43,957 bases of DNA, from assembly GCA_902787365.1 (NCBI GenBank), contig CADAGC010000018.1, forward strand, positions 1-43,957, given 5' to 3'. Below the pieces are notes generated by a model. The model was not told where the DNA came from and did not search any database. It worked only from the letters and a program-made list of their open reading frames with translations. Each line of letters begins with the position of its first letter. Position 1 is the first letter of the stretch. The DNA is from an uncultured Ruminococcus sp. (lineage in GTDB: Bacteria > Bacillota > Clostridia > Oscillospirales > Ruminococcaceae). Shown piece after piece: positions 12,021 to 41,157 of the stretch. A program made the position numbers and the translations under genes.

Positions 12021-12049
12021 ATTATACCACCTAACGCACCACAATGCAA
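12021..12049 (-). promoter_or_regulatory. Promoter of the response regulator gene
   Basis: Minus-strand TTGCAT (12044-12049), 17-nt spacer, TATAAT (12021-12026), about 35 bases before the start at 11986. Confidence 0.75.
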
Positions 12050-14393: not shown

Positions 14394-14816
14394 TTATGAT
14401 ACTCTTGTCATACCCTCGTGAGCAATCTCTATAGCTTCGATAGCAACTTCCGAAGCAGAAGCGTTGAAATCGGGAGCTGTATATCTCATAGGCCAAGCAT
14501 TGATGACCTGCCATGAAGCTGCGGGAGAGCCCTCTTCATCAAGCAGAGTTATTGTAATGGTCTTTCTTTCAACTGCGCCGTTCACGCCTGTTATCATCCA
14601 GTCATAGATAGCAGTTGAATCGACTAAACCCTGTTTGAGGGTGATATTGCCGTATCTCTTAAGGCCGGGTACCTTTGAAGGTGTTGTTTCCATATCGCCT
14701 TCTCTGTACTCTACTACGTCAATAGATGCGTCAAAGCCTGTCGCCTCGGAAAAGCCGCCGGCATCTATACCGTCTATCTCGACCTTATATCTGAACCGTG
14801 TATGTGGATAAATCAT
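14394..14816 (-). CDS. CIS inner tube protein (T4 gp19/Hcp-like)
   Basis: 140 aa, the usual length for Afp1/Pvc1-type tube proteins. The N-terminus RFRYKVEIDGIDAGGFSEATGFDASIDVVEYREG is the signature of the T4_gp19 tail-tube family, and the rest matches (VPGLKRYGNITLKQGLVDSTAIYDWM; ASSWQV-like region PAASWQVINAWPMRYTAPDFNAS; EIAHEGMTRV). It polymerises into the rigid tube pushed out by sheath contraction. ATG at 14816 follows AAGGGGG. It is 18 bp downstream of the sheath gene in the same operon. Only one tube gene is visible in this window. Confidence 0.95.
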   Translation of the reverse strand: MIYPHTRFRYKVEIDGIDAGGFSEATGFDASIDVVEYREGDMETTPSKVPGLKRYGNITLKQGLVDSTAIYDWMITGVNGAVERKTITITLLDEEGSPAASWQVINAWPMRYTAPDFNASASEVAIEAIEIAHEGMTRVS

Positions 14817-22504: not shown

Positions 22505-24727
22505 TTACAGGGCAAGATAACCGAAATCAGCGTCGGTAAGTATCTTGCCGTATTTTGAAAAATTGAGCTTTACAGCCTCGATTATATGTGCGTTGCGTAT
22601 ACCCTGCCCCTGCGAGGCGGCAAGAAATGCGGCATTTGTGAGTATCTCCTTTATATTGCTGCCCGACAGCTCAAAATGCTCGGCAAAGAACTCGAAATCT
22701 ATCGGCTCGTCTGTCTTTGCTGCGGCGGGCAGTATCTTCTGCCAAAGCATCAGGCGTATATCGGGTGTGGGGAACACAAAGTTTATCATAAACTTTATCC
22801 TGCGCTTGAAGGCGTCATCTATATTGTTGACATAGTTGGTGGCAAGTATGGTTATGCCCTCGTAGTCCTCGAGCTTTTGCAGAAGGAATGCTGTGTCGGC
22901 ATTGGCGTAGCGGTCATTTGAATCCTTGACCTCCGAGCGCTTTGCAAACATCGAATCTGCCTCGTCAAAGAAGAGCATGGCGTTTATATTCTTGGCCTTA
23001 TTGAAAAGATTTGAGATATTTTTCTGTGTCTCACCTATATACTTGCTCGAAAGCTGCGACAGGTCTATGCGGTAGAGGTCAAGCCCCAGCTCGTTTGCCA
23101 TGACCTGCACGGCCATTGTCTTGCCCGTGCCGGGCGAGCCGTAGAAAAGCGCACACAGCCCTCGCCCATACGGCGATTTTTTGCGAAAGCCCCAGTCCTC
23201 GTTTACAACACTTCGGTATTTGACCTGATCACAGATCATCATCATCTTGCGTTTCTGATCATCGCCTATCACAAGATCGTCCCAGGTGAACACGGCGTTT
23301 ATCTTTGACGCATAGCCACCAAGCTGGTTCGATGACTGCTGGCGCACGCTCTTAGAGAGGATATCGTTTGTTATCCCCGACCCTTCGGCTGCTGCGATAT
23401 GATGCGCACCCCGAGCAGCCTTGATTATGCCGTCGGGTGTGAGTATATAGCTGTTTGCAAGCACTGTCGTCTGCACCCCGTCATCAAGTGATGTGTCCCA
23501 GAATAGCTTGCGCTCGTTGGCTGTCAGCATGGGCAGCTCGGTGCTCACCACCTCTGTGTCGGTACCGATGAAGGTATCGTCCTTTTGGTGGGTGACCCAA
23601 AAGACAAAGTCAAACAGCGTGATGATATACTCGCCCGCTCTTTTGACTGCCAGAGCGGCAGGTGAGCGCTTTACGTTGCCCTCGCTGTCGGTCTCGGTAA
23701 GGGGCGTATCTACGGTAAAACAAGGCACAGCCCCGAGCAGCAGCGTCTCGGTATATATGCGGTCTATAATAAGCCTTATATCGTCTCGCTCACAGCTTAT
23801 GAGCTTGTAAAGATCAATATCCAAAAGCCGCAGACCCTTACGGCTCACGGCATATTCGGCACAGTATCTTCTGCCTATGCCCGCTGGGCCGCAGATGTTC
23901 ATGACAAACGGCGTGCCGCCCTTAAAGGCATTGTCGGCAAAGAGCTTTTCAACAAAGGAAAAGGTCTCGTTCCTTAGCCCGATATGTCTGCCGCTGTCAA
24001 ATGCGGGATATATGCGGCAGTATTCGCTGACTGCTTTATCCATAACGCTCTCACCGAGGATATACGATGCGGCCCTCGTGCTAAGCAAAAGACGCTGAGC
24101 GCTCTCGCCGCGGTCTAAGCGCCTTTTGCCCCTGTCGCACAAAAAGCGGCAAAGGGGCGACTCGCCGTCGAGCAGCCCCGCATACCCATTCTCCTTGCCG
24201 TAAAGGTATGCATACAATTTCTGCGCAAGCCACTTTGAGGGGTATTGATCGGTGCTGTTATTGTGAAGATAGGTAAACACCGCCTCGTATTTTCTGTCAT
24301 ACTCGACCGAGAGAGCAAGCAGCAGGCAGAACCTCTCGAAATCATCAAGGGCGAACTTGCGGCACACTATCTCAAAGCGTGAGATAAAGCCGTTATTAAG
24401 CCCGCGCTTTTTTCTTGCCTCTATATGGTAAAATGCGTTTTCGAGCTGGCTCTTTGCAGCAGCAGACAGGCCGCCCTGTCTGCTCTGCCGCCTGCCCGAC
24501 ATAAGCAGCTCGCCGAGGTCTGAGGAGGACACCGACATACCGAGTGCCGCACCTATCTCATCGCGGGGCGGCATATCGCCCGCTGTCAGACCCTTTGCAC
24601 CCGCTGCAAGTGTCAGGCTCATATCGAGCAGCGAGAACAGGTCGTCAAGCTCCTCTTTATCGCTGCTGTATGGTTTAAGTGTTTGTGCGAAATCAAAAAA
24701 TTCGCCGTAGAGCTTTTCTGTCTGCAT
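22505..24727 (-). CDS. AAA+ ATPase 2 (Afp15/Pvc15-like paralogue)
   Basis: 740 aa from ATG at 24725-24727 (CGGAGG four bases upstream); a longer frame to 24847 would overlap the neighbour by over 100 bases. The C-terminal AAA+ domain has GSPGTGKT (530-537), Walker B AMLFFDEAD (583-591), sensor ILATN and FKRRI. The middle module has GPAGIGRRY (280-288), again with Arg in place of the P-loop Lys, as in ATPase 1. The helical N-terminus (1-250) is longer than in ATPase 1. It is closely similar to ATPase 1 in the AAA+ part (SKYIGETQKN / SKYIGETEKN; SEVKDSNDRY / TEVRDSNDKY). Two such ATPases in one locus may form a mixed ring or serve different steps. Confidence 0.92.
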   Translation of the reverse strand: MQTEKLYGEFFDFAQTLKPYSSDKEELDDLFSLLDMSLTLAAGAKGLTAGDMPPRDEIGAALGMSVSSSDLGELLMSGRRQSRQGGLSAAAKSQLENAFYHIEARKKRGLNNGFISRFEIVCRKFALDDFERFCLLLALSVEYDRKYEAVFTYLHNNSTDQYPSKWLAQKLYAYLYGKENGYAGLLDGESPLCRFLCDRGKRRLDRGESAQRLLLSTRAASYILGESVMDKAVSEYCRIYPAFDSGRHIGLRNETFSFVEKLFADNAFKGGTPFVMNICGPAGIGRRYCAEYAVSRKGLRLLDIDLYKLISCERDDIRLIIDRIYTETLLLGAVPCFTVDTPLTETDSEGNVKRSPAALAVKRAGEYIITLFDFVFWVTHQKDDTFIGTDTEVVSTELPMLTANERKLFWDTSLDDGVQTTVLANSYILTPDGIIKAARGAHHIAAAEGSGITNDILSKSVRQQSSNQLGGYASKINAVFTWDDLVIGDDQKRKMMMICDQVKYRSVVNEDWGFRKKSPYGRGLCALFYGSPGTGKTMAVQVMANELGLDLYRIDLSQLSSKYIGETQKNISNLFNKAKNINAMLFFDEADSMFAKRSEVKDSNDRYANADTAFLLQKLEDYEGITILATNYVNNIDDAFKRRIKFMINFVFPTPDIRLMLWQKILPAAAKTDEPIDFEFFAEHFELSGSNIKEILTNAAFLAASQGQGIRNAHIIEAVKLNFSKYGKILTDADFGYLAL

Positions 24728-24737
24728 AAAGCCTCCG

Positions 24738-26462
24738 TTATCCGAAATATCTGAATGCCACAACTGCGGTGTCCATTGACACCTCGGCGCTGCCGCGGTA
24801 TTTTTCAAGGTCATCCTCCAGCGCCTTAAGGGTATCGTTGAGCGCATACACGCTGCCGGATATGCTGTTCATTCTGCCAACGAGCCTTTCAAGGCCGTAT
24901 TTTTTGCCGTTGTCGTTGCTCATCTCGGTCACACCGTATGAGGTAAACAGCACCGTGCTGCCCTGAGACAGCTGTATGGTCTGCTGTTCAAAGGCTATGC
25001 CTCGCATCTGCCCGAGGCAGAAGGGCTGGCTGGCCTTATCGGGAGCATAGTCCTCACCCGGTTTTTTTATGAGAATAGGGGGCATACCCGCATTCACATA
25101 CCTCATAAGACCTGTGCTCAGGTCGATATCGACTATCACGGCGCCCACAGTCATCTCGCTGTCCTTTTTCTCGTTGCTGCAAAGCTGATTGTTTGTATCA
25201 AAGGCTATCTTGCAGGGCGCAGCGCCCGTCTTTGCAAAGCTCTTGATATACGATACCGAAAGGATAGAGAACACCATAGACGCAAGGCTGCTGCCAAGCG
25301 ACTCTCCGAGCACTATGAACAGATGATCTGTCTTTGTAAAGAAATAGTTGAAAAAGCTGCATTTGTTATACATCGTATGCCCGAGGCTTGCGAACATATC
25401 AAAATCGCTCCGCTCGGGGAATGCGGGGTAGGTTATCTCGCTCGAGACCACGCGGCGCATCTGGTTTGCCACATCAAGGTCTAATTTCAGCCTTTGCTCC
25501 TCCGAGGTCTTTAGCTCTAAATTCTTTGTATAATCAATGACGCTCTGCGCCAGCGAATTGAAATCGTCGGCTATCTGCTCTACCTCGTCATTTGTATGTA
25601 TATCGGTTATAGGCTCAAATTCAAGCATCTCCTTGTTTGAGACAAATTTATTCATATGAGCCGATATGGTGTTTACGGGCTTGACTACCCGAACCTTGAT
25701 GAATATATACGCTACCGCCCAGAAGAAGATATAGTTTATCAGCGTATTGAAGAGGATCACGCTGTAATCTTTGAATACTGCCAGAACTATCCTGAAGGCG
25801 CTGTATTCTATGCCCGCGACAGCACACACCGTGCCATCGCTGTACCTGACAGGCGCATACGCCACGAGCACAAAGCCCGATTCATTTATGGCAGTTCTTT
25901 CAAGGGCGACGGCCTCATTCGTCTCATAGACCTTTTTTACCGTTTCAAAGGCTCTGCTCTTACCGAAATCGTCGCCGAGATCGTATTCCGAATCACCATT
26001 TTTCGTAACATCCATCACTATCACCATATCGTTTTTTATCTCGCCGTTCTCATCAAGCTTGGGTTTATATATGAATATATCATCATATTCATTCTTTTTT
26101 ATCGAGTCGGTAAGTTTATCTTTGACATAATCATAATGATCGTTCTTGCCGTTTTCAAGCCAGTCATCGACAAATTCGCCGTAACTGGTCATCTGATCCA
26201 ACGCTTTATTCATCTCATCAATGGACATATCGGAATAGTCTTTGTCTTCGAGAGGCTTTGTCAGAGCGGCCTGTATCAAAGACGCATTAAAGGTCATGTC
26301 CTCACGGATCTCCTCGACCTTCTCATCATAAAACCCCATAAAGATAGCCGTCATAGTTGAGGTTATGGCGATAACAAATATGATGAGCATGGTCACGAGC
26401 ACCATTCTCTCGAGCTTGCCGCGCTTTTTTATCTTATTTTCCAGTTTTTCCTTATGCTTCAA
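24738..26462 (-). CDS. Membrane sensor with HAMP and degenerate SpoIIE/PP2C phosphatase domain
   Basis: 574 aa. TM1 at 21-43, an extracytoplasmic Cache-like sensor (44-233, ending in YAPVRYSDGTVCAVAGIEYS), TM2 at about 234-257, HAMP at about 258-310, then a SpoIIE-type domain (345-574) recognisable from GMPPILIKKPGEDY and SQGSTVLFTSYGVTEM. Key metal-binding positions look changed: the usual GGDFYD reads NKCSFFN, the usual GDVSGKG reads GESLGSS, the TDG turn reads TSYG. So it is probably a pseudophosphatase (inference). Start is a TTG at 26460-26462, six bases after GAGGTG; the next ATG (M20) would cut off the basic lead before TM1. It lies between the cyclase-like gene and AAA+ 2. Confidence 0.88.
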   Translation of the reverse strand: MKHKEKLENKIKKRGKLERMVLVTMLIIFVIAITSTMTAIFMGFYDEKVEEIREDMTFNASLIQAALTKPLEDKDYSDMSIDEMNKALDQMTSYGEFVDDWLENGKNDHYDYVKDKLTDSIKKNEYDDIFIYKPKLDENGEIKNDMVIVMDVTKNGDSEYDLGDDFGKSRAFETVKKVYETNEAVALERTAINESGFVLVAYAPVRYSDGTVCAVAGIEYSAFRIVLAVFKDYSVILFNTLINYIFFWAVAYIFIKVRVVKPVNTISAHMNKFVSNKEMLEFEPITDIHTNDEVEQIADDFNSLAQSVIDYTKNLELKTSEEQRLKLDLDVANQMRRVVSSEITYPAFPERSDFDMFASLGHTMYNKCSFFNYFFTKTDHLFIVLGESLGSSLASMVFSILSVSYIKSFAKTGAAPCKIAFDTNNQLCSNEKKDSEMTVGAVIVDIDLSTGLMRYVNAGMPPILIKKPGEDYAPDKASQPFCLGQMRGIAFEQQTIQLSQGSTVLFTSYGVTEMSNDNGKKYGLERLVGRMNSISGSVYALNDTLKALEDDLEKYRGSAEVSMDTAVVAFRYFG

Positions 26463-26484
26463 TCAAAACACCTCTGAATCAGCC

Positions 26485-27288
26485 TTACCATATCTCGAGA
26501 TACTTCTTCTCATTATCGTCAGTCTCGTCTGCCATACAGTTATCGCACTTGAAAACATACTGCTTTGCCGCCGCATCGTTCCTGTCCGCCTTAAGTATCT
26601 CTATAAAATACGTTCTTGCCTCGAGATAAGCGCCCTTTAAAAACAGCTTGACGCCTGTCTCGAAAAAAAGCCTGCTGCGCATCTTGCTGTATTTCGTATC
26701 GGCAAGATCGCCGTCATAGACATCATATATCTCATCGGATATGTCTGCAGACTTATGGTATATCATTCCGAGCCTGCGGCTGTTGAACTGCTTGCTGCCC
26801 GAGAGCCGCGCCATAGCATCGCCCGTGACAAGTATGCGGGAGTTATATTTCTGAGCGCTCTCGCTTAAAGCCGTCACGGTATCCATAGTTTCCGACATCA
26901 TAAGCGGCATACACAGATCCTTATAGCCCACAGTCCCCAAGCAAAGGCTGCCGTAGCCTATGCCTATGCCGATACCCTTGAAAAGCTCTCTGCGCTCTCT
27001 GAGTGCTGCGTCCTGACAAAGGGTTATGGCAAACTGCAGGGCATCGTTGCAGTCATGCTCGAACATGGCGGCTATCCCGCGTCTGGTTATACACAAAAGC
27101 CTTCCGTTATACTTTTCAAGGGTATGGCCGACGTCCTCGGTCTGCATATTTATAACGGTGATATGCCCCGCATCGGTGCCTATCTTGATCTTATCTCTGA
27201 AAAAGGCCGTCGAAACATTCACTATAACGGTCTCGACCACCTCGGACTTTCCCGGCGCAAAGGGTATGCCATATTGTTGTTTTTCCAT
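26485..27288 (-). CDS. Degenerate class III nucleotidyl cyclase-like protein with C-terminal TPR-like helices
   Basis: 267 aa. The middle keeps the shape of a class III adenylate/guanylate cyclase homology domain: HTLEKYNGRLLCITRRGIAAMF where cyclases have an IGDGxMA loop, and GIGIGIGYGSLCLGTVGYKDLCMPLMMSETMDTVTALSESAQ where they have 'GxxxGxxxxGNxGxxxRxxYTVIGdtVNxAARL'. Both metal-binding Asp positions and the substrate YTVIGD part appear lost, so it is probably a pseudocyclase. The C-terminal 60 residues (SRLFFETGVKLFLKGAYLEARTYFIEILKADRNDAAAKQYVFKC) look like TPR helices. ATG at 27288 follows AAAGGAAA. It is 22 bp from the SpoIIE-like gene; the two may form a signalling unit. Confidence 0.85.
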   Translation of the reverse strand: MEKQQYGIPFAPGKSEVVETVIVNVSTAFFRDKIKIGTDAGHITVINMQTEDVGHTLEKYNGRLLCITRRGIAAMFEHDCNDALQFAITLCQDAALRERRELFKGIGIGIGYGSLCLGTVGYKDLCMPLMMSETMDTVTALSESAQKYNSRILVTGDAMARLSGSKQFNSRRLGMIYHKSADISDEIYDVYDGDLADTKYSKMRSRLFFETGVKLFLKGAYLEARTYFIEILKADRNDAAAKQYVFKCDNCMADETDDNEKKYLEIW

Positions 27289-27311
27289 TTACAGCGTTTC
27301 CTTTCGTAGTG

Positions 27312-27698
27312 TCACGGCACCATGATATTTGTCGTGCCGGGGTTGGTTATCTGAATGACCCCGCCCCAGTTGCACATGAGCTTGCAGTTATTGTCAAGCG
27401 CAGGCTGCCCGCCTATAAGCACAGTCGGCGCACCCGGCACCCACGGCGCAGTGGTCACAGGCATACAGGGCATAGGTGTGAGCACACCCATAGCCGCTGA
27501 AGTCGCGGCAGCCACCGTAGGGTTTCCAAGGCATGAGCACATACCGAAGGGCATTATATTGACCATAGGCTTATTATCCATGATATTTGCAAGGGGCATC
27601 GAGGTAAGTGTTTTGTTCATCGGCAAAACATTAAAGGTAGAGGGTGCTGCCCCGAATGAGCAGGCAAGCATAGCGCCGCCGCACACTGCAATAGCCAT
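27312..27698 (-). CDS. PAAR-like DUF4280 protein (spike tip)
   Basis: 128 aa. The composition is rich in Pro, Met, Cys, Ala and Gly, with the DUF4280 signature: VCGGAMLACSFGAAPSTFNVLP at the start, then NIMPFGMCSC, ATPMPCMP-like LTPMPCMPVTTAPWVPG, and the end GGQPALDNNCKLMCNWGGVIQI. DUF4280 proteins are PAAR-like tips that sharpen the spike, with Cys/His-type metal binding, and are the usual Afp10 equivalent in many CIS loci. ATG at 27698 follows AAGGAAG. Its position next to the Ig-like and cap genes rather than the spike gene (40377) is unusual but within the same transcription unit. Confidence 0.92.
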   Translation of the reverse strand: MAIAVCGGAMLACSFGAAPSTFNVLPMNKTLTSMPLANIMDNKPMVNIMPFGMCSCLGNPTVAAATSAAMGVLTPMPCMPVTTAPWVPGAPTVLIGGQPALDNNCKLMCNWGGVIQITNPGTTNIMVP

Positions 27699-27721
27699 AT
27701 TATGTTACTTCCTTTCCGTGT

Positions 27722-28492
27722 TCACTTGACAAGCTCTGCTTTCACATAGGTATCATTACCGATGTCGACGATTTTTTGTATCAACTTACCGTCAGCCGGG
27801 CTTTGAGCCTCGCACACAAGTGTTCCGCCGCCTTTTTTGATGAGCAGCATAAAATCCCCGCTGCTGTCTGCCCTGCACTCACACACCTGAATGACTGCCG
27901 TACCTATCTTCGGGTAGTCTGCCGTCAGCTCACTCGAGAGCTTGTATTCGCTTCTTTCCTTATTTACGGCAGCAGTCACCCTTACATACTCGCCCTTATC
28001 ATCGGATGATGCTATCTTTAACAGCCTGCCCTCGATATTTTCATCGGAGCCTGTATATATGCCTATGACGCCGCTGCCTTTTTTCGCATCATGCAAAAGC
28101 TTAAGTGCGCCCGATTTATCGCCGCTCCATACCCTGACTGCTGCATCGGGGAAAGCTTTTCCCTCGATCCTGACCGTACCCAATGACACGGGGTAGAGCT
28201 TGTTCGGCAGCAGCCTTATTATAAGGTCGCCGCAGGTCTTATCATCAGCCGTGAAGGGCACCTGCGTCCTTGCATACTGCCCGCCCTCTGCGATAATGGT
28301 ATGCTCACCCGCAGGCAGGTCGGTAAAAATGCTTATGCCGTCACTTTTCTTTATGGGGGGCTTATGGCCTTCTATCCAGACTCTCGCGTTGCTGCCCTTA
28401 ACGGGCAGGCCTGTCAGGTCGTCTATAAGCTGCACCGCCGCCGAAACACGAGTTAGTATTCGCCTTGAACGCGAGCCAAACCATTCACTCAT
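27722..28492 (-). CDS. Ig-like/carboxypeptidase-regulatory-like domain protein
   Basis: 256 aa from ATG at 28490-28492 (AAGGGTGAG upstream; TTG one codon earlier is out-competed). An N-terminal beta domain (VSAAVQLIDDLTGLPVKGSNARVWIEG...GISIFTDLPAGEHTIIAEGGQY) has the look of carboxypeptidase-regulatory-like or Pvc16-type C-terminal domains that commonly follow DUF4255. The remainder is beta-rich with alternating short strands to the end. No signal peptide or membrane segment. It sits directly after the DUF4255 gene (22-bp gap), so the two are perhaps the split halves of one cap/terminator module (inference). Confidence 0.8.
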   Translation of the reverse strand: MSEWFGSRSRRILTRVSAAVQLIDDLTGLPVKGSNARVWIEGHKPPIKKSDGISIFTDLPAGEHTIIAEGGQYARTQVPFTADDKTCGDLIIRLLPNKLYPVSLGTVRIEGKAFPDAAVRVWSGDKSGALKLLHDAKKGSGVIGIYTGSDENIEGRLLKIASSDDKGEYVRVTAAVNKERSEYKLSSELTADYPKIGTAVIQVCECRADSSGDFMLLIKKGGGTLVCEAQSPADGKLIQKIVDIGNDTYVKAELVK

Positions 28493-28514
28493 CAAAACTC
28501 ACCCTTCTTACTGC

Positions 28515-29102
28515 TCATACACCGTTTCGGTCACCAAGCTGACCGAATACGAAATCGGTCTCCTTAACTCTTGTGATCTCTCTGATCTTCTCTGATTCTA
28601 TCTCTACGGGGTAGACCTTATAGAATACCGACAGCTTATAGGGCTGATCGGGGATATTCCATATACGGTGCTTTTCCTCGTTATCGAGATCGAGCATCTC
28701 TATGCGCGGGAGAAAATGCATATTCTCAAAAACCTTGCCGTAAAGTTCGGGCTTCATAACGGGGTTGCCCTCGAGCAGCTGCATAGCACGCCCTATCATC
28801 TTAGCCTCTTCGAGAGAGCGGAACTTTATATCGCTCGACGAATAGGCGGTTATCATATAATAAAGATCTAGAAAGAACGAAGGAGCCTGCATCTTATCGC
28901 TGCCTATGGGTATCTCCTTAGGGTCGATATCATTATTGCGTTTCATATCGTAAAGGGTAATGCCGAGGCTTATATCTCCCCTGTCGGAGGGGTGGCAGAC
29001 ACCTATCCCCTCGGAATTGGGTATGATATCAGGCACCATGCCTTCACGAAGCAGTCTGACAAGTGCATCGCCTATATCTGAAATGATATTATAATTTGCC
29101 AT
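28515..29102 (-). CDS. DUF4255/Pvc16-like tube-terminator (cap) protein
   Basis: 195 aa from ATG at 29100-29102, six bases after AGAGGTG (a GTG three codons upstream is part of the ribosome site). The DUF4255 (Pvc16_N) features are clear: an N-terminal helix IISDIGDALVRLLREGMVP, then IGVCHPSDRGDISLGITLYDMKRN, then PSFFLDLYYMITAYSSSD and the helix AKMIGRAMQLLEGNPVM. The Afp16/Pvc16 protein caps the tube and sheath at the distal end. It is followed closely by the Ig-like gene and preceded by the MORN gene. Confidence 0.93.
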   Translation of the reverse strand: MANYNIISDIGDALVRLLREGMVPDIIPNSEGIGVCHPSDRGDISLGITLYDMKRNNDIDPKEIPIGSDKMQAPSFFLDLYYMITAYSSSDIKFRSLEEAKMIGRAMQLLEGNPVMKPELYGKVFENMHFLPRIEMLDLDNEEKHRIWNIPDQPYKLSVFYKVYPVEIESEKIREITRVKETDFVFGQLGDRNGV

Positions 29103-29114
29103 ATCAAGCACCTC

Positions 29115-30602
29115 TTACTTTGTTGCTTTGCTTTCGTCTGTCTTGCTGTCTTGCTTGCTGTCATCGGTCTTTTCTTCCTCGGGGGGCTTTGTGGTATCCT
29201 TTATCACATCTCCGTTTTGAGAGTAGAGTATACCCGCATCGTATTTGCCGAGCTTGAAGGTGCCCTCATATTTAAGCTCACCGCTTTGGTAAAACTCACG
29301 CCCCTCGCCGTCATACTTGCCGTTATAGAAGCCGCCGTCATACAAAAGCTCTCCGTTTTGGTCAAACAGCTTGCCGCTGCCCTGATACTTTCCGCCGTAG
29401 GTCTCGCCGTCATATATAAGCGTTCCCTTAGCGTTAAAGAGCTTGCCTGCGCCCTGATACTTGCCCTGATAGAACTCTCCGTCATAGATCAGAGCGCCGC
29501 TTTTATCAAACAGCTTTCCCGCACCCTGATATTTGCCCTGATAAAACTCTCCGTCATAGACGAGCTTACTGTTTTCATACAGCTTGCCCTTGCCGTCATA
29601 TTTTCCGTCGGCAATCTCGCCCTCGTATATCTTCCTGCCCTTATTATTATAAACGATACCCGTGCCGTTCTTTTTGCCGTCAACGAAATTGCCAGCATAC
29701 ACGAGCTTACCGTTTGAATAAAGCTTGCCCTTGCCGTTATACTTTTTACCTGTTATCTCACCGACATACTTTATCTTTCCGTTTTCATCATAAAGCGTCG
29801 TTGTTCCGTCAACCACACTTCCGTTGCCGATAGTGCCGTTTGATAGCACAGCACCCTTTTCGTCATAGAATGTTCCCGTTCCGAGCGGCTTGCCCATAGA
29901 GAAACCGCCGCTGTAATACAGTACACCGTTTTTATAAAGCGAGCCGTTTCCGTTATACTGAGAATCGGTAAACTCACCGCTGTAAACGAGCACGCCGTTA
30001 TCATACTGCTTGCCTTGGCCGTTGAATTTTCCGTCCTCAAACTCTCCCGTATACACAACGCCCTGCTCGTTCATAAGCGTTCCGAGACCGTTATACATAC
30101 CGTTATCGAAGCTGCCGTCATATACGAGGTTATCACCGCTGTAAAGCTTACCGCTGCCCGAGTATACATTTGACTTGAATTCGCCGCTGTAAACAAGCTT
30201 GCCGGTGCTCGTATCGTAAAGCTCGCCCTTGCCGCTGTATTCGTTATTGACAAAGCCGCCGCTGTATTCAACAGCGCCCGACGAGGCAGAATACTTTTTG
30301 CCGCTGCCGTTATATGCGCCGTTTTCAAACACGCCGTCATATATGACCTTGCCGCTCTTTTCGTCATAGAGCCTGCCGTTGCCGTTATACATACCGCTTG
30401 CAATCTGCCCCGAATACTTTATATTGCCGTTTTCATAGAAGAGCGTTCCCTCGCCCTCATACATATTGGCATTGAAGCTGCCTGTATATTCGATACTGCC
30501 GTCGGGGTAATAGAGCTTTCCGTAGCCGGAGTATTCGCCCTTTTTGAACTCACCGACATATACAAGCTCACCGTCATAGTTATAAAGCGTTCCCTCGCCC
30601 TC
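29115..30602 (-). CDS. MORN-repeat domain, C-terminal part of a frameshifted membrane protein
   Basis: The frame encodes about 20 MORN-type repeats of 23-25 residues, for example YDGEFYQGKYQGAGKLFDKSGALI occurring almost unchanged in neighbouring copies (29440-29580). It ends with an acidic, Lys-rich tail (KTDDSKQDSKTDESKATK). The first ATG in frame is at 30462-30464, but repeat sequence (EGEGTLYNYDGELVYVGEF, then GYGKLYYPDGSIEYTGSF) continues unbroken upstream to about 30602 with no start codon, where the frame meets the TM-protein gene at 30580-30924. One base less there would fuse the two. MORN repeats often bind lipids or scaffold membrane complexes. Confidence 0.85.
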   Translation of the reverse strand, partial: EGEGTLYNYDGELVYVGEFKKGEYSGYGKLYYPDGSIEYTGSFNANMYEGEGTLFYENGNIKYSGQIASGMYNGNGRLYDEKSGKVIYDGVFENGAYNGSGKKYSASSGAVEYSGGFVNNEYSGKGELYDTSTGKLVYSGEFKSNVYSGSGKLYSGDNLVYDGSFDNGMYNGLGTLMNEQGVVYTGEFEDGKFNGQGKQYDNGVLVYSGEFTDSQYNGNGSLYKNGVLYYSGGFSMGKPLGTGTFYDEKGAVLSNGTIGNGSVVDGTTTLYDENGKIKYVGEITGKKYNGKGKLYSNGKLVYAGNFVDGKKNGTGIVYNNKGRKIYEGEIADGKYDGKGKLYENSKLVYDGEFYQGKYQGAGKLFDKSGALIYDGEFYQGKYQGAGKLFNAKGTLIYDGETYGGKYQGSGKLFDQNGELLYDGGFYNGKYDGEGREFYQSGELKYEGTFKLGKYDAGILYSQNGDVIKDTTKPPEEEKTDDSKQDSKTDESKATK

Positions 30603-30924
30603 TCGACTTTGTGAAGAACTTACTCACGAGCCACGGCACGCCGAGCTGCACAAACAGCGCAGCACCCAATATCATCAGCAGCAATACTATGTAAACGAGC
30701 TTTTTGGCTACCAGCTTATCGCCGACCACATAATACTGATCTATCGACGTAGGCTTTGAGGTTATGCCCTTTGATTCCTTTTTTACATCGGTGGCAACCT
30801 TTGTGACGATATTCTGCGGATTGAGCTGTCTTAAGACTCTTCGCCCGAACAGCGCGATCGGCGTGATGAATATTCTTTCTATTTTTCTAAGAAATAGCTT
30901 AAAAGCGCTGAACAGGTCAAACAT
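30580..30924 (-). CDS. N-terminal membrane segment of the MORN protein (frame-disrupted)
   Basis: 114 aa as read. A basic amphipathic N-terminus (FDLFSAFKLFLRKIERIFITPIALFGRRVLRQLN) is followed by one transmembrane helix (about residues 76-100, LVYIVLLLMILGAALFVQLGVPWLV). The frame then runs into SRGRGNAL and a stop inside DNA that, shifted by one base, encodes the first MORN repeats. In an intact version this would be a single protein of about 600 aa with one TM helix and a MORN domain. ATG at 30924 is 10 bp from the pseudokinase stop. Mutation, assembly error or programmed frameshift cannot be told apart here. Confidence 0.75.
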   Translation of the reverse strand: MFDLFSAFKLFLRKIERIFITPIALFGRRVLRQLNPQNIVTKVATDVKKESKGITSKPTSIDQYYVVGDKLVAKKLVYIVLLLMILGAALFVQLGVPWLVSKFFTKSRGRGNAL

Positions 30925-30934
30925 AATAAAACAC

Positions 30935-31786
30935 TCACTTGTCCTTATCTATCGTTACGGTGCCTATGCTGTCGAAATTCGGCTCCTCCTTTTCGGAGCT
31001 TTTCGATTTTTTAATAGCAAACACGAGATATGCCACGGCAGCAGCCAAAAGTGCGATTATCAGCACTTTTTTGAGCACCTTCCAAACCTTCTTTATCTTA
31101 TCCCACAGCTTATACCATATCGACTTAGGCTCCTCATTTCCTGCATTCCTCTCGATAAGAGCCGTCATCATCATATAATACCTGCTGTAAAGCTCTATCA
31201 TGCCCGCACCGCCAAGCTCGGGCATCTCCTTATAAAACTCAATAAGCTCATCGGGCACCTTGCGCTCTATCTCACGCGCAAAGACATTTTTGAAAAACTG
31301 CTCAGCCCTTTTTACGGGGGCGCACTCCCTCTGACCTGTTATATCCTCAATGGGATAATTAAAGCTCAGGGTCATATCGGGAGCAACTATGATATTTTTT
31401 TCATAAAAGCATTTATCGAGAAAATAATCGGGTATATCGAGAAGCACCGCCCGCTCGAGTATCTTACGAAACAGCTCGAGCCGTTCTCTTAAGGGTGCGG
31501 CCTCGGTATCGCTCTTATCCGCAAGGGTAAGCCCCTGAGTATACTTCATCACTATACAAAGAGAGTCATCAAACATAAAATGCTCTTTATAATCGGTGAA
31601 CACCTCGGGGTCTACCTGCTCACTCAGCCACGCAACAAGCTCGGGTATCTCCGACTTATCCTTAAGTCTGAGCACTCGGCAAAGCCCGCCGGTCTCTTCA
31701 TCGGAGCATATATATACATCGTATTTGTCGTTGCTTTCGAGAACACTTGTCACGGGGTACTGATGCCCGTAGGTATATATGACCAA
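30935..31786 (-). CDS. Pseudokinase-like protein with C-terminal membrane anchor (EssB/YukC-like layout)
   Basis: 283 aa. A kinase-like lobe pattern: FMFDDSLCIVMKYTQGLTLAD (hinge region), LRERLELFRKILERAVLLDI (helix), then FLDKCFYEKNIIVAPDMTLSFNYPIED, where active kinases have HRDLKPENI...DFG. The HRD and DFG motifs are not kept, so it is probably inactive. One TM helix at about residues 243-262 (VLIIALLAAAVAYLVFAI) after a basic stretch, then a short charged tail. The pseudokinase plus single TM layout is like EssB/YukC of type VII secretion, although I cannot claim homology. Start is a TTG at 31784-31786, eight bases after AAAGGAGG. Adjacent to the MORN membrane gene, so both may anchor the machine. 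Confidence 0.82.
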   Translation of the reverse strand: MVIYTYGHQYPVTSVLESNDKYDVYICSDEETGGLCRVLRLKDKSEIPELVAWLSEQVDPEVFTDYKEHFMFDDSLCIVMKYTQGLTLADKSDTEAAPLRERLELFRKILERAVLLDIPDYFLDKCFYEKNIIVAPDMTLSFNYPIEDITGQRECAPVKRAEQFFKNVFAREIERKVPDELIEFYKEMPELGGAGMIELYSRYYMMMTALIERNAGNEEPKSIWYKLWDKIKKVWKVLKKVLIIALLAAAVAYLVFAIKKSKSSEKEEPNFDSIGTVTIDKDK

Positions 31787-31849: not shown

Positions 31850-31985
31850 GTAACCCCTCCGTCACGGCGGCGGTGGTGGAGGGGGTTCGCTAAGGCAAGG
31901 CTTTCGGGCGGGGGGGCTTTCCGGTCGCCCCCTTAGCCCCCTTCGGATTGCCGCTCACACACCTAACCTCTTACCTCTAACCTCT
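31850..31985 (-). repeat. GC-rich dispersed-repeat-like spacer with stem-loops
   Basis: The 190-bp gap between the fibre-like gene and the pseudokinase gene is by far the most GC-rich piece here. It has a stem with arms AACCCCTCC (31852-31860) and GGAGGGGGTT (31878-31887), then runs such as GGGCGGGGGGGCT paired with AGCCCCC. It ends with a string of AGAGGTTAG/AGAGGTAAG-type direct repeats (minus strand, about 31961-31985) that reaches into and supplies the stop codon of the upstream gene. Elements starting ACCCCTCCGTCACGGC are scattered in many Ruminococcaceae genomes (from memory). No ORF or convincing promoter seen inside. Confidence 0.6.
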
Positions 31986-33680
31986 GACCACTACCATAAT
32001 GGACGCCTTGACGTCGGGGTAAACGGCGCTCTGGGCTATCACCTCGTAAACGCCCTCGACATTAGGCGCGGTATACATACCGTTTGAGTCTATCTCGCCG
32101 CCCGCGGCGGGTGAAACAGACCAGCGCACCGTCTTGTTGGTCATATTGCTGCACACAGCCTCCAGATACTTCGTCTCCCTCGGTCTGATGACAAGTGAGT
32201 TGGGCTTTATGGTGATCTTCATATTTCTCTTTTCGGCGGTCTTTTCGTCAACATCACGGATAGCCGTCCATTTTACATCTATATAGCCCTGAAGGGTCGT
32301 CGATCTTGTCTTGACGCCCACTATGAAGCTGCCGCGTGCGGGGTCGAGCTTTGCGGCAAGCTCATACTGCGTTTCCTCATCGCGGAACACAGAGGGGCTG
32401 CCATAGATAGTACCCGATTCTGTCACTGCCGCAAGTATTATCGTCACGCTGCCAAGCCCGATACCGTGGTATATCTCGTCCGAGAAGAACACACGGTTTT
32501 TAAGGCTGCCCTCGTTGAGATTTATCCTGCAAACGCCGCTTGCGATATCTGTCGGCCTATCTGTGCGGCCGGGCTTATCATCCACAGCAGCAGGAGAATA
32601 GCTGCTCTTTTTGCCGTAGTTTTTGCCGTTCCTGCCCAAAGCGCTCAGAAGCATATTGCTCGTAACATACTGCCCGAAGGGAACATTGACGATACTGTCA
32701 ATTATAGATGTGCCCACCGAGCTTACAAGGTTTATCCTTGCAAGATAGAGCCTCTGCCCAAGGGTTTTTCGCAGCTCGGTATCCATACTGTGATCGAAAC
32801 TCTCCAAGGCTATCGCATCATACAGATCCCTGTCGGTTATCTTAACTGACGAGCCGCCCGATATCTCGCCCTCGACGGGGGTCTTGTCATAAGCTATCTT
32901 AAAGGTCGAGCCGTCGGGGGTGGCCGTTGCGTCGGTGTCGTTAACATTGGCGGCGGTAAGATCATAGGTCAGGGTATATTTGCCCGTCTTTTCAAGCAGC
33001 TTTTCATCGAAATTGACCTTGAGCACCGAGCTGCCGTCAGCTGCACAGTTAAGGCACACAAGCTGTATATCGTAAGAAAATGCAGTGAACTGCCTTGAAT
33101 ACGTCTCTATCTCTACTCTGAACGGGAATGAGGTATCGGGGTTTACAAATCTCGGCATAACATGGCGTATGCGCACGCTGCCGTTCCAGAACACCGTCAC
33201 CGACTGTTCATAGACATTATCGGTGCTGTTTATATCGTCCTCAGGCTCGCTCGTGGTGAGATAAAGGTTATAGCCCTCCTTTATCCTGTCCGAGTTTTCG
33301 CCGCTGCCCGAGACTATATTATGTGCAGCACCCTTTGCGCCCTCGCTGTACTCTATGCACAAATACACATAAGCGCTGCTGCCTGTATTTAACGAAGTAT
33401 CAAAGCCGCTGAGCATACCGAGTTTCTTTGTTACGGGCTTATCGACAACTATCTCGCGCCCCGTGGTATCGAATGCCATGCCGCTCTCTACCGAAATGGT
33501 GGTATCGTCAACTCTGACGACGTTTAGGCCGCAGACTACGCCCACACCGTGTACAAGGCGATTTATCAGCCTTCTCTTATCGTCCATATACTTCTGCTCG
33601 GAATTGAAATCCTCAACGCTTAAAAGCTTTCCGTAAAAATAATTGTTCCTCTCAAATGGATAAAGCTGTGTGTTTTTCAT
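31977..33680 (-). CDS. Putative CIS fibre/baseplate-decorating protein with C-terminal Ig-like domain
   Basis: 567 aa. The N-terminal domain FERNNYFYGKLLSVEDFNSEQKYMDDKRRLINRLVHGVGVVCGLNV, then ESGMAFDTTGREIVV, is of a type I associate with CIS and phage-like tail loci, between tail protein I and the sensor/cap genes (from memory). Beta-rich middle. A C-terminal Big-like Ig fold (about 485-567: KITIKPNSLVIRPRETKYLEAV...VRWSVSPAAGGEIDSNGMYTAP). Its place after the tail protein I matches where Afp13-type fibres sit, so a receptor-binding or fibre role is inferred. ATG at 33680 follows GAGGAG. The final codons and stop (VVVRG then TAG) lie within an AGAGGTTAG repeat, so the original end may have been altered by repeat insertion. 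Confidence 0.82.
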   Translation of the reverse strand: MKNTQLYPFERNNYFYGKLLSVEDFNSEQKYMDDKRRLINRLVHGVGVVCGLNVVRVDDTTISVESGMAFDTTGREIVVDKPVTKKLGMLSGFDTSLNTGSSAYVYLCIEYSEGAKGAAHNIVSGSGENSDRIKEGYNLYLTTSEPEDDINSTDNVYEQSVTVFWNGSVRIRHVMPRFVNPDTSFPFRVEIETYSRQFTAFSYDIQLVCLNCAADGSSVLKVNFDEKLLEKTGKYTLTYDLTAANVNDTDATATPDGSTFKIAYDKTPVEGEISGGSSVKITDRDLYDAIALESFDHSMDTELRKTLGQRLYLARINLVSSVGTSIIDSIVNVPFGQYVTSNMLLSALGRNGKNYGKKSSYSPAAVDDKPGRTDRPTDIASGVCRINLNEGSLKNRVFFSDEIYHGIGLGSVTIILAAVTESGTIYGSPSVFRDEETQYELAAKLDPARGSFIVGVKTRSTTLQGYIDVKWTAIRDVDEKTAEKRNMKITIKPNSLVIRPRETKYLEAVCSNMTNKTVRWSVSPAAGGEIDSNGMYTAPNVEGVYEVIAQSAVYPDVKASIMVVVRG

Positions 33681-33689: not shown

Positions 33690-34832
33690 TCATTTTTCCT
33701 GTTCACCGAGAACAGATAGTGTGATGCGGCTCTTTCCGTCAAGCACCGCATTAGTCGGTCTGTTGATAAACGAATTTATACCGAGATAGGAATTTTGCCC
33801 CAGAAAGATATACGGCTCGAGCACGGTTATCTCGGGGTCTACCGTCATTGGCATGAATTCCCTCGCTATACGCCAAAGCGCATCAACGTCATTATCGTTT
33901 TTTATTAGCTCGCCCGGCACAAGTATGAACACCTTATACGGATCCTTGCCGTACAGCGGCACAAGTATCTTTTCATACATCTCGCTGCCCCTGTATTTTT
34001 GCAGCGAGAAGTTTTCGATGATAAACGGCCTTTCGCCTATATACAGCTCGATAGCCCTTGAAAGGCTCTCTCTTGTGCCTCTGCTGCGGTAAAGGCTGAC
34101 TGCCGACATCATAAAGTCTCTTAGCTTATCCTCGCTCCACATCGACCGATCTGCGATATCGAGCCACTCTGCGAGCCATTCGAGAAAGTCGGCATCTGCG
34201 CTCTCGGGATCGAACCTGTCGGCTATACGGTCTATCCTGTATTCGACCTCTTCGTAAAGCGTCTGGAAAATGCCGAGAAATCTCTCCAAAAACCTGCTTT
34301 CCTTATCGCTTTTGCGGTATATATCGGGCAGTCTGTCTATCCATGACTCGGCGGGCAGATAAAGCATAATGTCATTTATAGCCGCAGGCCTGTCGCTCGT
34401 GCCGAGCAGCTCGATATACACCCACAGATACCTTCCGCTGACATCGTGCAGCAATATATCATGCACGCCGCCGATACGCTTTTTCTCAAATTGCGAGAGC
34501 ATCTGCGTTTTTTCGCGCAAACTTATGCTCTTATCATTTATCACCTTATCTGCCGTAAGGGTCTTACCCTTATAGGTGAACTCCTTATCGTTTGCAGCAT
34601 AAACTATGATACGAAGATCGTCATCGGAGCAGTTTTCTGTGTTTATCACCAGCCTGTGCCAGACATTTCCCCGCTCGAGCGAATCGAACACCTTGGTCAT
34701 AAAGCAGCTTATGCCCGAGCGTTTATCCGAGCTATACTTAAGCTTATTGTCAATGACCTCCATATTTTCGTATGCACCGCGCTCAAAGTCATAGGCATTG
34801 TTCAGTATGAAATATTTAAGTCTTCCCTTCAT
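33690..34832 (-). CDS. Tail protein I (P2 gpI / TIGR02242-like) baseplate component
   Basis: 380 aa. An N-terminal beta-rich decoration domain (1 to about 160) is followed by the conserved tail-protein region: SWIDRLPDIYRKSDKESRFLERFLGIFQTLYEEVEYRIDRI (about 163-203), then FLEWLAEWLDIADRSMWSEDKLRDFMMSAVSLYRSRGTRESLSRAIELYIG. This is typical of the phage tail protein I family that attaches fibres to the baseplate in CIS. ATG at 34832 is preceded by AAAGGAGAG. Downstream is the putative fibre gene (9-bp gap). Confidence 0.92.
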   Translation of the reverse strand: MKGRLKYFILNNAYDFERGAYENMEVIDNKLKYSSDKRSGISCFMTKVFDSLERGNVWHRLVINTENCSDDDLRIIVYAANDKEFTYKGKTLTADKVINDKSISLREKTQMLSQFEKKRIGGVHDILLHDVSGRYLWVYIELLGTSDRPAAINDIMLYLPAESWIDRLPDIYRKSDKESRFLERFLGIFQTLYEEVEYRIDRIADRFDPESADADFLEWLAEWLDIADRSMWSEDKLRDFMMSAVSLYRSRGTRESLSRAIELYIGERPFIIENFSLQKYRGSEMYEKILVPLYGKDPYKVFILVPGELIKNDNDVDALWRIAREFMPMTVDPEITVLEPYIFLGQNSYLGINSFINRPTNAVLDGKSRITLSVLGEQEK

Positions 34833-34860
34833 CTCATACAGCTCTCCTTTGCTGCCCTTA

Positions 34861-36915
34861 TCAGGTATTTATCATTACATCTATATCGGTGAGATATGCC
34901 GCCGCATTTTTCATCAGCAGCAGGTCGCCTTCGCCGGTTCTCTCGGCGTTGCTGCCCTCTGTCTGCATAGTGAGCACATTTATTGAGAAAACGCCGTCAA
35001 CGCTGTCGATAAGCTCATAAAGTCTGCTGTAGACTATCCTCGCACCGAAATCGTCCTTAATCTCTTCAAAAAACGAGGCTATGGCGTTTATAACTCTTTG
35101 CCGCAGATCGTGCGTGTTTCTCGCGGCAGTAATATCTGCATACACCATGACCTGTGCATATTCGGGGCGCACTATCCAAAACTGCGCACCGAGCATCCTG
35201 TGAGGCTCGAGGGTGTCAAGAATGTTCTTGACATATTCTTCGCTCGGAATGCCCATGCCGTTCTTGGCATAGGGCTTTACGACTATCGGCGTCACAAAGC
35301 CGTCACGCCTGCTTTCTGACTTTATCACCTTGCATTTTTCTATCCTGAGCCCCTGCGTGCTGCTGACAAAACGCTCACAGTCCTCATCGGTCACGATAGT
35401 ATCGGTAGTTTTCAAAAGTCTCTGCGCTCTGAGAGTACATTCCTCCATAGTCTCCTCATCTGTGCCGCCGTATGACGCACGCTGGTTCTCGACTGTTATC
35501 TGTGACCTGTCAAAGCCCTTAATCTCGTTTATCTTGCCCTTAGTGACATTCCCCTGTGCGCCGCGTGTGAGCGAGCAGGCGATTATCAGTATCTCTCCCT
35601 CGGGCGCCATGCCGTGGATACAGTCACCGAAAGTCACTCTGCCCTTTTGGGTGTCAAGCACATAAACCAAATCATCTGTCCCCGCCGCCGCGAAATCATT
35701 CACCTTTCTGCACTCGGCATATTTGCCGCCGCTGCCGGGCAGCTCGGTCATTATGGCGAAGGTCTCATATTCAACGTCCTTTGTTTCAAGATCGTACTCC
35801 TGGAAGGGCAGCCCCGTGCCATAGCCCACGGCACCCTCTGCCGAAAAGGCAGCTGTCATATTCACAACGCGCACGCCTTTTGACACTCTGCCGCCGGGTA
35901 TATTTAATATGACCTCGCCGCTTTGCCCGTCTATACGCTTTTCAAAGCTTCTTACGGGGGTAAAGCAGCCGTTTTCGTCCTTTAGGAATACTCTCGTCTC
36001 ACCCGTAACTGCAAGCTCGGTATCAAGGCGCAGTTCATCACTCGGGCGAAGATCGGTATACTCTGCCTGCGTGTCTCTCTGAGTTACCGGCAGAAGGTTG
36101 AAGCACGCCCTTTTTATGACAGGCAGTGCATCGTATTCGCCTCCGCAAACACGGAACCTTACATAATATGCCTCATGCCCGCCTACGCTCAGGCTGCCGT
36201 GCTTACCCGCAAGGGTAAACATGATATTTCCCGAAAAAAGAAAACCGTAGGTCTTGTCCTCCCATTTAACGGGGCGCCAGAACAGCCCGTCATAGTATTC
36301 CATACACAGGCTCACAAGAGGCGTAAAGCCTGCGGGGGCGGTGATAGGGTTTCTCTCTATGCCGTCCTCACTTGCTATATCGAGCCACAGTGTATGCAGC
36401 TCTTTCTCGGCAAGGGGCTTGTCAAATCCGATATAAAACGCCCCGCCGCCATTTTCGTCAAAGGGCAGCATATGAAGATCGCCGCCGAAACGCACCTGCT
36501 CGTGCGCCGCGACATTCATTTCTCCGTCGCGGTCGCACACATACACATCTATCGCCGATGACGAGATATATGTGCGCCTGTCAGCCTCAAAGCATATATC
36601 GCCCGCATAAAGCTTTGTGCCCCTTGCAGCCGTTATGTCATCATCAAATATCACCGAAACATCTGTCGATGAGGGGGTCTTTGTGCGTCTTTTAAGACCA
36701 AGCAGCTTAAGATACTTGCTGATGTTATCGGGGCCTATCTTGTTTAAGTAATACTGCTGGCTCTCTTTGAGCCATGCAAACAGTTCAAGCATGGTCATGC
36801 CCGGGTCGTGATAGTTGAAATCAGTCCATTCGGGATAGATGCTTGCTATCGAATTGCGTGCATTGTCAAGTATATCGTCAAAGTATTCGTTATCAAGATT
36901 TATATCTGGCAGCAA
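34861..36915 (-). CDS. Baseplate J-like protein, shorter copy (Afp11/Afp12-like)
   Basis: 684 aa. The N-terminal motif IYPEWTDFNYHDPGMTMLELFAWL (residues about 30-52) and the C-terminal region QRASYGGTDEETMEECTLRAQRLLKTTDTIVTDEDCERFVSSTQGLRIEKCKV are hallmarks of CIS baseplate wedge proteins related to T4 gp6 and P2 gpJ. It builds the baseplate ring around the spike and triggers contraction. Start: TTG at 36913-36915, seven bases after GGGAGGTG. It is the neighbour of the longer copy (32-bp gap); the pair is probably used together in the wedge, as with Afp11 and Afp12. Confidence 0.93.
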   Translation of the reverse strand: MLPDINLDNEYFDDILDNARNSIASIYPEWTDFNYHDPGMTMLELFAWLKESQQYYLNKIGPDNISKYLKLLGLKRRTKTPSSTDVSVIFDDDITAARGTKLYAGDICFEADRRTYISSSAIDVYVCDRDGEMNVAAHEQVRFGGDLHMLPFDENGGGAFYIGFDKPLAEKELHTLWLDIASEDGIERNPITAPAGFTPLVSLCMEYYDGLFWRPVKWEDKTYGFLFSGNIMFTLAGKHGSLSVGGHEAYYVRFRVCGGEYDALPVIKRACFNLLPVTQRDTQAEYTDLRPSDELRLDTELAVTGETRVFLKDENGCFTPVRSFEKRIDGQSGEVILNIPGGRVSKGVRVVNMTAAFSAEGAVGYGTGLPFQEYDLETKDVEYETFAIMTELPGSGGKYAECRKVNDFAAAGTDDLVYVLDTQKGRVTFGDCIHGMAPEGEILIIACSLTRGAQGNVTKGKINEIKGFDRSQITVENQRASYGGTDEETMEECTLRAQRLLKTTDTIVTDEDCERFVSSTQGLRIEKCKVIKSESRRDGFVTPIVVKPYAKNGMGIPSEEYVKNILDTLEPHRMLGAQFWIVRPEYAQVMVYADITAARNTHDLRQRVINAIASFFEEIKDDFGARIVYSRLYELIDSVDGVFSINVLTMQTEGSNAERTGEGDLLLMKNAAAYLTDIDVMINT

Positions 36916-36947
36916 GCTGTCACCTCCCTTTTAATGTCAAACACCGC

Positions 36948-39908: not shown

Positions 39909-39942
39909 GTCTCTCACCTCTTTTCACTTCTGTTATATGCTC

Positions 39943-40359
39943 TTATCTTTCCGTATCGCCGTAGCCCTCGTTTATATAGAAGGGATAGACGAGGTTGAAA
40001 GGGTTATTTGTTGACCTTACCACATAGCTTACATTTATTATCAGCTTGCCGTTATCGTCGGGTGCAAAGGCCACCTCGGCGTTTATGTCCTTTATGCGCG
40101 GCTCCCACATTATAAGCGCATTCTCGACCTCGCGTTTCATCATCATAATCGTGGTATAATCCGAGCCGCTGAAAGCGAATGAGTTTATAGCGCACCCAAA
40201 CTCGGGCATCATCGGCCGCTCACCGGGGGCTGTGCCGAGTATCAGGCGCACCGATTCGCTTATATCCTCCTCATTTGAGGATGTGCGCACTCTGCCGGTA
40301 TTCGGGTCTACGCTCACGGGGAACTTAAAGCCCGTTCCGAGAAAGCTCTTATCATACAT
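39943..40359 (-). CDS. GPW/gp25-family baseplate protein (Afp9-like)
   Basis: 138 aa. It matches the gp25 family: FLGTGFKFPVSVDPNTGRVRTSSNEEDISESVRLILGTAPGERPMMPEFGCAINSFAF, with the conserved EFG (PEFGCxI) motif. The C-terminal strand region (NAEVAFAPDDNGKLIINVSYVVRSTNNPFNLVYPFYI) also fits. Gp25 is the wedge part that seeds sheath assembly and is among the most conserved CIS proteins. ATG at 40359 follows GCAGGTG. Between spike and J-like genes, the standard order. Confidence 0.95.
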   Translation of the reverse strand: MYDKSFLGTGFKFPVSVDPNTGRVRTSSNEEDISESVRLILGTAPGERPMMPEFGCAINSFAFSGSDYTTIMMMKREVENALIMWEPRIKDINAEVAFAPDDNGKLIINVSYVVRSTNNPFNLVYPFYINEGYGDTER

Positions 40360-40376
40360 TACGCCGCACCTGCCTT

Positions 40377-41156: not shown

Positions 41157-41157
41157 T

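Follow-up and report, generated by a model that had tools for sequence, protein, structure and literature searches.

Signalling-type proteins without active sites in a Ruminococcus contractile injection system locus suggest non-catalytic anchors and switches

Why should the locus of a contractile injection system (CIS) carry three signalling-type proteins that have each lost the active site of their family? The question is raised by a 43,957-nucleotide (nt) stretch of DNA from an uncultured Ruminococcus sp. (assembly GCA_902787365.1, contig CADAGC010000018.1, positions 1-43,957; hereafter the window), in which a first-pass annotation of positions 24738-31786 described a kinase-like membrane protein, a class III cyclase-like protein and a HAMP-SpoIIE phosphatase-like sensor, all degenerate, within one CIS operon. 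Our analysis upheld that description, as all three genes lie on the minus strand where the annotation had placed them (Table 1), folds or family profiles identify their products, and the catalytic residues examined are lost. The surrounding genes are those of a CIS, with sheath, tube, baseplate wedge, spike, cap-type and AAA+ genes in a single cluster, and a family scan recovered the sheath, a gp19-type tube, gp25, a VgrG-like spike, two Baseplate_J proteins, Tail_P2_I, Pvc16_N, DUF4280 and two AAA+ proteins. That these enzyme look-alikes lack active sites and are yet preserved by selection suggests that dead enzymes serve the CIS as non-catalytic anchors and switches.

Single-sequence searches with the kinase-like and cyclase-like proteins against Pfam, NCBIfam and PDB sequences returned chance matches only, and family profiles were therefore needed for both. 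A search with the Pvc16_N protein identified CIS loci in 24 of the 297 genomes of the window's family, from which 22 relatives were extracted beside the window, with the weakly matching G162 left out; a search with DUF4280 yielded at least 80 named loci, of which many do not belong to a CIS. Here G000 denotes the genome of the window, G-numbers family genomes and L-numbers extracted loci. Both locus sets were annotated with profiles built from the window's genes and 60 loci were tabulated; our locus counts describe the loci extracted and not all that exist, numbers derived from DUF4280 hold among the matches listed, and the Paenibacillaceae (9), Tumebacillus and Heliobacterium stretches span 10 kb around DUF4280 (20 kb each).

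The loss of catalytic residues is consistent across relatives. A two-lobed kinase fold for the membrane pseudokinase is supported by an AlphaFold model and by the family profile, and C126 and N143-Y144 occupy the catalytic positions, so that with the HRD and DFG aspartates gone the protein does not qualify as an active Ser/Thr kinase. The HRD aspartate is present in none of 42 homologues and the catalytic-loop Asn is retained in 22 of them; the 13 comparison kinases were chosen for having HRD and DFG and hence are not a fair non-CIS control. The class III cyclase homology domain of the pseudocyclase is likewise supported by profile and AlphaFold model, with a PF00211 match in 18 of 30 family members at E<=1. 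S26 and R70 stand in place of its two metal aspartates, and D and A in place of the Asn/Arg pair, which disqualifies it as an active cyclase. Both metal aspartates occur in 0 of 72 pseudocyclase copies and one of them in eight (the count omits L080 and L104, which duplicate G067 and G262). Both are present in all nine readable non-CIS class III cyclases (11 found, two unread), a control biased toward intact cyclases because the PF00211 model rewards catalytic motifs. One of the nine is encoded in the window's genome itself, an intact receptor of about 960 amino acids (aa) with HAMP and class III cyclase domains (G000:C46, L163:9445-12333), whose layout is that of the CIS receptors described below; unlike them, it retains both metal aspartates and the Asn/Arg pair, and no CIS genes were found around it.

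The third protein is a clear member of the SpoIIE family (88.1 bits, Pfam cut-off 25), and its HAMP match falls under the cut-off (21.8 bits against 25). It shares the order of transmembrane segment (TM), outside region, TM, HAMP and SpoIIE domain with RsbU-type HAMP-SpoIIE phosphatases, which also match Pfam clearly; unlike them, it has its active-site aspartates replaced, and its gene sits in a CIS operon beside a free pseudocyclase. The aspartates of four conserved motifs, which we take to be the SpoIIE/PP2C active-site residues, are lost through the changes of GGDFYD to KCSFFN (S369, N372), GDVSGKG to GESLGSS (E387), TDG to SYG (Y509) and DD to MD (M563). The four Asp columns thus read S, E, Y and M, the sole remaining Asp is the second of the DD pair, and the protein falls outside the active phosphatases. 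In all 11 rows of this eroded type the first Asp column holds S and the second E, and in 10 of 11 the first motif ends in N. Erosion of the active site is stepwise: the first and second aspartates are both present in L116, the state of L094 and L105 is mixed, and the 11 window-type rows have neither. The window's genome holds four other SpoIIE genes, of which three are readable and all three intact.

Purifying selection on all three genes is demonstrated in relatives, with the SpoIIE gene the least constrained. In the least saturated pair, L072/L073 (synonymous divergence, dS, above 1), the ratio of nonsynonymous to synonymous substitution rates (dN/dS) is 0.065 for the kinase, 0.060 for the cyclase, 0.138 for SpoIIE and 0.061 for CIS13. 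It is 0.08 for kinase and cyclase in L073/L074, and 0.21 for the kinase and 0.23 for the cyclase, beside 0.18, in G037/G269. Values of 0.45, 0.53 and 0.83 (kinase, cyclase, SpoIIE) in G000/G001 derive from a handful of changes in a pair too close for the test. Drift is unlikely, since the best-conditioned pair has a low dN/dS (0.06-0.14) and relatives conserve the SpoIIE motif in its altered form; the comparisons with non-CIS paralogues likewise speak against chance. The first-pass proposal that folds, and not ancestral chemistry, are put to use is probably right, given that the degeneracy recurs in other loci and the genes are under purifying selection.

In other loci the three genes do not recur as one trio, and to that extent the first-pass proposal was not supported as it stood: homologous loci, well furnished in other respects, that lack a gene, which it had named as a refutation, exist for the SpoIIE gene (0 of 39 larger-receptor loci, within 5 kb) and for the kinase gene (11 Paenibacillaceae, Tumebacillus and Heliobacterium stretches). 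The trio is not one ancient set: among the loci covered, the pseudocyclase is the broadest component, the pseudokinase belongs to a Clostridia-type subset, and the pseudophosphatase is confined to clades in which the receptor has been reduced to a free domain. The pseudocyclase takes three layouts, two with HAMP (about 700-980 aa and about 560-580 aa) and one free (258-373 aa), and is found in Clostridia-type as well as Paenibacillaceae, Tumebacillus and Heliobacterium loci, where it mostly forms the output end of a larger HAMP receptor. CACHE and beta-propeller, names suggested for outside regions by inspection of the sequences, had no family match behind them and are not relied on here. In a 76-row tree (excluding G283, a partial G179 copy, L080 and L104) with a partly resolved backbone, the short receptor form makes up one group, and the free form makes up two clusters together with the distant L095, in whose locus no other CIS genes were found. 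A sensor-like N-terminal half joined to a major facilitator superfamily (MFS) transporter domain lies beside the pseudocyclase gene in three loci (L089:11567-14212, L103:13068-16004, L105:13458-15665), making the MFS domain another unexpected output domain in some CIS loci.

The pseudophosphatase follows the reduction of the receptor closely. Of the loci with a free pseudocyclase, 14 of 15 have a HAMP-SpoIIE gene no more than 5 kb from the cyclase gene, versus 0 of 39 otherwise well-furnished loci whose receptor is larger (Fisher p 4.6e-12, computed over loci that are not independent). In G024 and G290, SpoIIE genes are 7.5-8.6 kb from the cyclase gene, and G290 and G297 each have a degenerate SpoIIE as well as another whose readable motifs are intact. 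The gene neighbourhood suggests that the HAMP-pseudo-SpoIIE protein and the free pseudocyclase jointly replace the single receptor. The sensor half of the window protein is nearer in sequence to active HAMP-SpoIIE proteins (174 bits for G297, 138 bits for G290) than to short cyclase receptors (101-122 bits), which favours the recruitment of a phosphatase over an exchange of domains within the receptor itself. Near the CIS of G024 (L034/L035) and G297 (L059), STAS-like and HATPase-like open reading frames (ORFs), named by eye, accompany a HAMP-SpoIIE gene in an arrangement resembling a partner-switching module.

The pseudokinase gene is linked to CIS loci and has a fixed place in them. Its profile matches 18 of 24 Pvc16-positive genomes versus 0 of 273 others (Fisher p 4.5e-24), a contrast that assumes identical 297 genomes in both scans; of the six positive genomes without a match, G074, G179, G229 and G290 are positive by the locus profile, the G297 locus is cut and G162 was not extracted. 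Where a CIS13-like gene is in view, the pseudokinase gene directly follows it in 19/19 family loci and 22/22 other listed Clostridia loci. It stands beside a MORN-repeat membrane protein throughout and is fused to it in 2 of the 22 other-Clostridia loci, as single chains at L116:6504-8579 and L127:6441-8543. The window protein has a single hydrophobic segment followed by a tail, and three relatives lack both the TM segment and the IGTV tail. One homologue carries a LysM-like tail (20.4 bits, just under the cut-off of 20.9), which places the tail side outside the cell. An extracytoplasmic IGT(V/L) motif after the TM is kept in most homologues. In G001, a genome nearly identical to that of the window, the MORN membrane gene is a single ORF of 639 aa; it is two ORFs in the window, where (29115-30924) the segment after the TM is lost and the frame shifts close to a repeated short motif; the split may reflect a true deletion or an assembly collapse of repeats.

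How these parts might work together can be framed as follows. We see an even chance that the three proteins constitute the membrane-side control apparatus of Bacillota CIS, a non-catalytic anchor and receptor that position and gate the particle. The pseudokinase and MORN protein would form an anchor or hub holding baseplate-side parts at the membrane in the manner of EssB/YukC, and the HAMP receptor would relay an outside signal, as a conformational change, to an output domain that is itself dead. In the clade of the window, the dead SpoIIE domain would signal to the free pseudocyclase-TPR protein, which may bind a CIS part, for example the adjoining AAA+ ATPase, to permit assembly or firing. 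Such a relay would need no production of phosphate or cyclic nucleotide. A more far-reaching reading, which we hold only tentatively, is that these loci represent a third class of Bacillota CIS with a membrane-held, all-pseudoenzyme trigger (dead kinase-MORN anchor plus HAMP receptor) whose output, a dead cyclase or else a dead phosphatase with a free dead cyclase, is read mechanically by the particle, with neither second messenger nor phosphorylation.

Several observations weigh against a control apparatus of this kind. The SpoIIE gene evolves faster than its neighbours, leaving room for relaxed constraint, and its value of 0.83 in G000/G001 rests on 6 synonymous and 19 nonsynonymous changes. 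The association of SpoIIE with split pseudocyclases counts loci whose split forms fall in two tree clusters, several of the 39 larger-receptor loci have less than 5 kb of DNA beyond the cyclase gene, and L127 has a split pseudocyclase with no SpoIIE in view. The MORN gene of the window is broken as assembled. The pseudokinase is absent from 11/11 of the 20-kb Paenibacillaceae, Tumebacillus and Heliobacterium stretches and is not required by every CIS of the wider kind, unless the gene lies outside those 20 kb.

Some of the same observations would be expected if the three proteins were decaying relics, ancestral signalling enzymes drifting to loss. Lost active sites, the graded SpoIIE erosion from the milder L116 through the intermediate L094 and L105 to the window, the high SpoIIE ratio in G000/G001 and the broken MORN gene all fit that view. 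It is nevertheless largely refuted, and we regard it as very improbable, in light of the low dN/dS of L072/L073 and L073/L074, the frames that stay open among relatives at 48-70% identity and the conservation of the substituted SpoIIE residues themselves. An altered chemistry, in which at least one protein has a new mode of binding nucleotide or metal, or a different reaction to catalyse, as SidJ and SelO have among kinase folds, would account for the catalytic-loop Asn kept in about half of the pseudokinases, the single metal Asp in a few pseudocyclases and the new conserved motif that replaces the SpoIIE motif, and kinase-fold precedents are named in the available part of one report (PMC12599244). 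The ligand columns of pseudokinase and pseudocyclase, however, hold varied and often hydrophobic residues, unlike a conserved new active site, and we consider this reading improbable.

The remaining alternatives retain the loss of catalysis and differ in what the proteins do. By binding and sequestering a STAS anti-sigma antagonist or a comparable protein, a dead SpoIIE could tune transcription of the CIS operon instead of gating the particle. The closest intact relatives found by the sensor profile are HAMP-SpoIIE proteins (G297, G290), STAS-like and RsbW/HATPase-like ORFs, named by eye, occur in the G024 and G297 neighbourhoods, and the window's operon includes a BTAD-type regulator. No STAS or HATPase protein was found among the window's CIS-operon ORFs scanned with Pfam, however, and transcriptional control would leave both the pseudokinase and the association of SpoIIE with split pseudocyclases unexplained; we judge it unlikely. 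A purely structural assembly, with pseudokinase and MORN protein as the anchor of the particle and the remaining two proteins as non-sensing scaffolds, has a precedent in what the accessible text on EssB/YukC describes (PMC9600267, PMC13037476) and would suit the constant position of the pseudokinase gene behind cis13. The receptor layout of at least two TMs, an extracytoplasmic part and HAMP is that of signal transducers, which makes this reading unlikely too. The control apparatus set out above, non-catalytic with both anchor and receptor, is the explanation that we favour.

Control of a contractile machine by a kinase and a phosphatase is familiar from the type VI secretion system (T6SS), where threonine phosphorylation is governed by the PpkA kinase and the PppA phosphatase, both active enzymes. 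The CIS set likewise pairs a membrane kinase-like with a phosphatase-like protein in the machine's locus, but neither of its two folds is active, and it has a pseudocyclase besides. The closest precedents come from Gram-positive secretion systems, in which EssB/YukC and TraF are pseudokinase hubs. Like the CIS pseudokinase, EssB/YukC is described in the available portions of two reports as having an N-terminal cytosolic pseudokinase, a TM and an extracytoplasmic C-terminus, encoded in a Gram-positive secretion locus (PMC9600267, PMC12599244), and the former, in the same portion, describes an interaction hub that contacts all components of the type VIIb secretion system. The CIS protein differs in its short IGTV tail, in place of a large extracellular domain, and in its CIS locus. 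YukC (PF10140) was matched neither by the window pseudokinase nor among the 25 families listed for 23 members (E<=1), exceeded the cut-off in 0 of 148 family genomes and had no match at 1e-10 in 81 phylum genomes; EssB/YukC is also missing from the 50 structural matches listed for the pseudokinase model, an absence that excludes nothing. TraF of pIP501 type IV secretion has, in the excerpted description, a pseudokinase-fold N-terminal domain, a TM and structural resemblance to YukC (PMC13037476), and on that description the order of its parts is like that of the CIS pseudokinase; unlike the latter, it belongs to a conjugation machine. The thylakoid-anchored CIS of Anabaena shares the idea of a membrane-held CIS, but there baseplate and fibre proteins are extended to provide the anchor, and the word kinase has 0 occurrences in the available text (PMC8894136). 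A survey of extracellular CIS (eCIS) records, in its accessible part, that BTAD regulators and, occasionally, histidine kinases are encoded close to eCIS loci. Within the open-licence literature, no description was found of a CIS together with a pseudokinase, with a cyclase and SpoIIE, or with MORN repeats, and cyclase goes unmentioned in the available text of the CIS papers searched by term, in keeping with the first-pass statement that no CIS with such a set has been described.

Table 1. Features of the CIS cluster in the window, listed in the order of their positions from high to low
Feature	Position	Strand	Remarks
Baseplate and spike block: Tail_P2_I, two Baseplate_J, gp25, VgrG-like	33690..41180	-	
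CIS13-like protein, encoded immediately before the pseudokinase	31977..33680	-	NCBIfam match under curated cut-off
Membrane pseudokinase, 283 aa	30935..31786	-	kinase fold ~1-213, TM ~233-261, tail IGTV 274-277
MORN membrane gene, N-terminal part with TM (66-101)	30580..30924	-	
MORN-repeat part of MORN membrane gene	29115..30464	-	separate from the TM part as assembled
Pvc16_N protein, CIS cap/sheath-end family; query used for finding relatives	28515..29111	-	
Conserved CIS-locus protein, family unassigned	27722..28495	-	
DUF4280, candidate PAAR-like tip	27312..27698	-	
Class III pseudocyclase, 267 aa, no TM	26485..27288	-	cyclase domain ~14-195, C-terminal TPR-like helices
HAMP pseudo-SpoIIE sensor, 574 aa	24738..26462	-	TM - extracytoplasmic region - TM - HAMP - pseudo-SpoIIE
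AAA+ ATPase with WHD variant domain	22505..24847	-	longest-ORF start overlaps SpoIIE gene, probably too far upstream
ATPase-BTAD/Trans_reg_C regulator	19339..21468	-	
Second AAA+	17422..19332	-	
Contractile sheath	14835..16538	-	
Tail tube	14394..14816	-	

All of these genes share one strand, on which the order runs from the VgrG-like spike, gp25, two Baseplate_J genes and Tail_P2_I to the CIS13-like gene, the kinase-like gene and the MORN gene in its two pieces, continues through Pvc16_N, the conserved unknown, DUF4280, the cyclase-like gene, HAMP-SpoIIE and AAA+, and ends with two small genes, the ATPase-BTAD regulator, the second AAA+, one more gene, the sheath and the tube. From the coordinates, 22 nt separate the cyclase and SpoIIE genes and 10 nt separate the kinase gene from the next ORF. 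A response regulator with a receiver domain (11126-12049) lies at the downstream end of the cluster, and on the opposite, plus strand a dynamin-family GTPase (2914-5289) and a HerA/DUF87-type ATPase (5316-8921) possibly form a separate system.

The positioning and firing of Gram-positive CIS are largely open questions, and firing through the thick wall is hard to picture according to the accessible text of a Streptomyces CIS study (PMC10066040); the pseudokinase and the dead-cyclase receptor provide named, testable genes with which to approach them. Class III cyclases that serve as outputs although dead, and the exchange of one such output for another, would show receptor folds to be capable of signalling without chemistry. 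The pseudokinase would add the CIS to EssB/YukC and TraF as a machine using a membrane pseudokinase and, if a third class of Bacillota CIS does exist, Gram-positive type IV and type VII secretion systems and CIS would share membrane pseudokinases as hubs.

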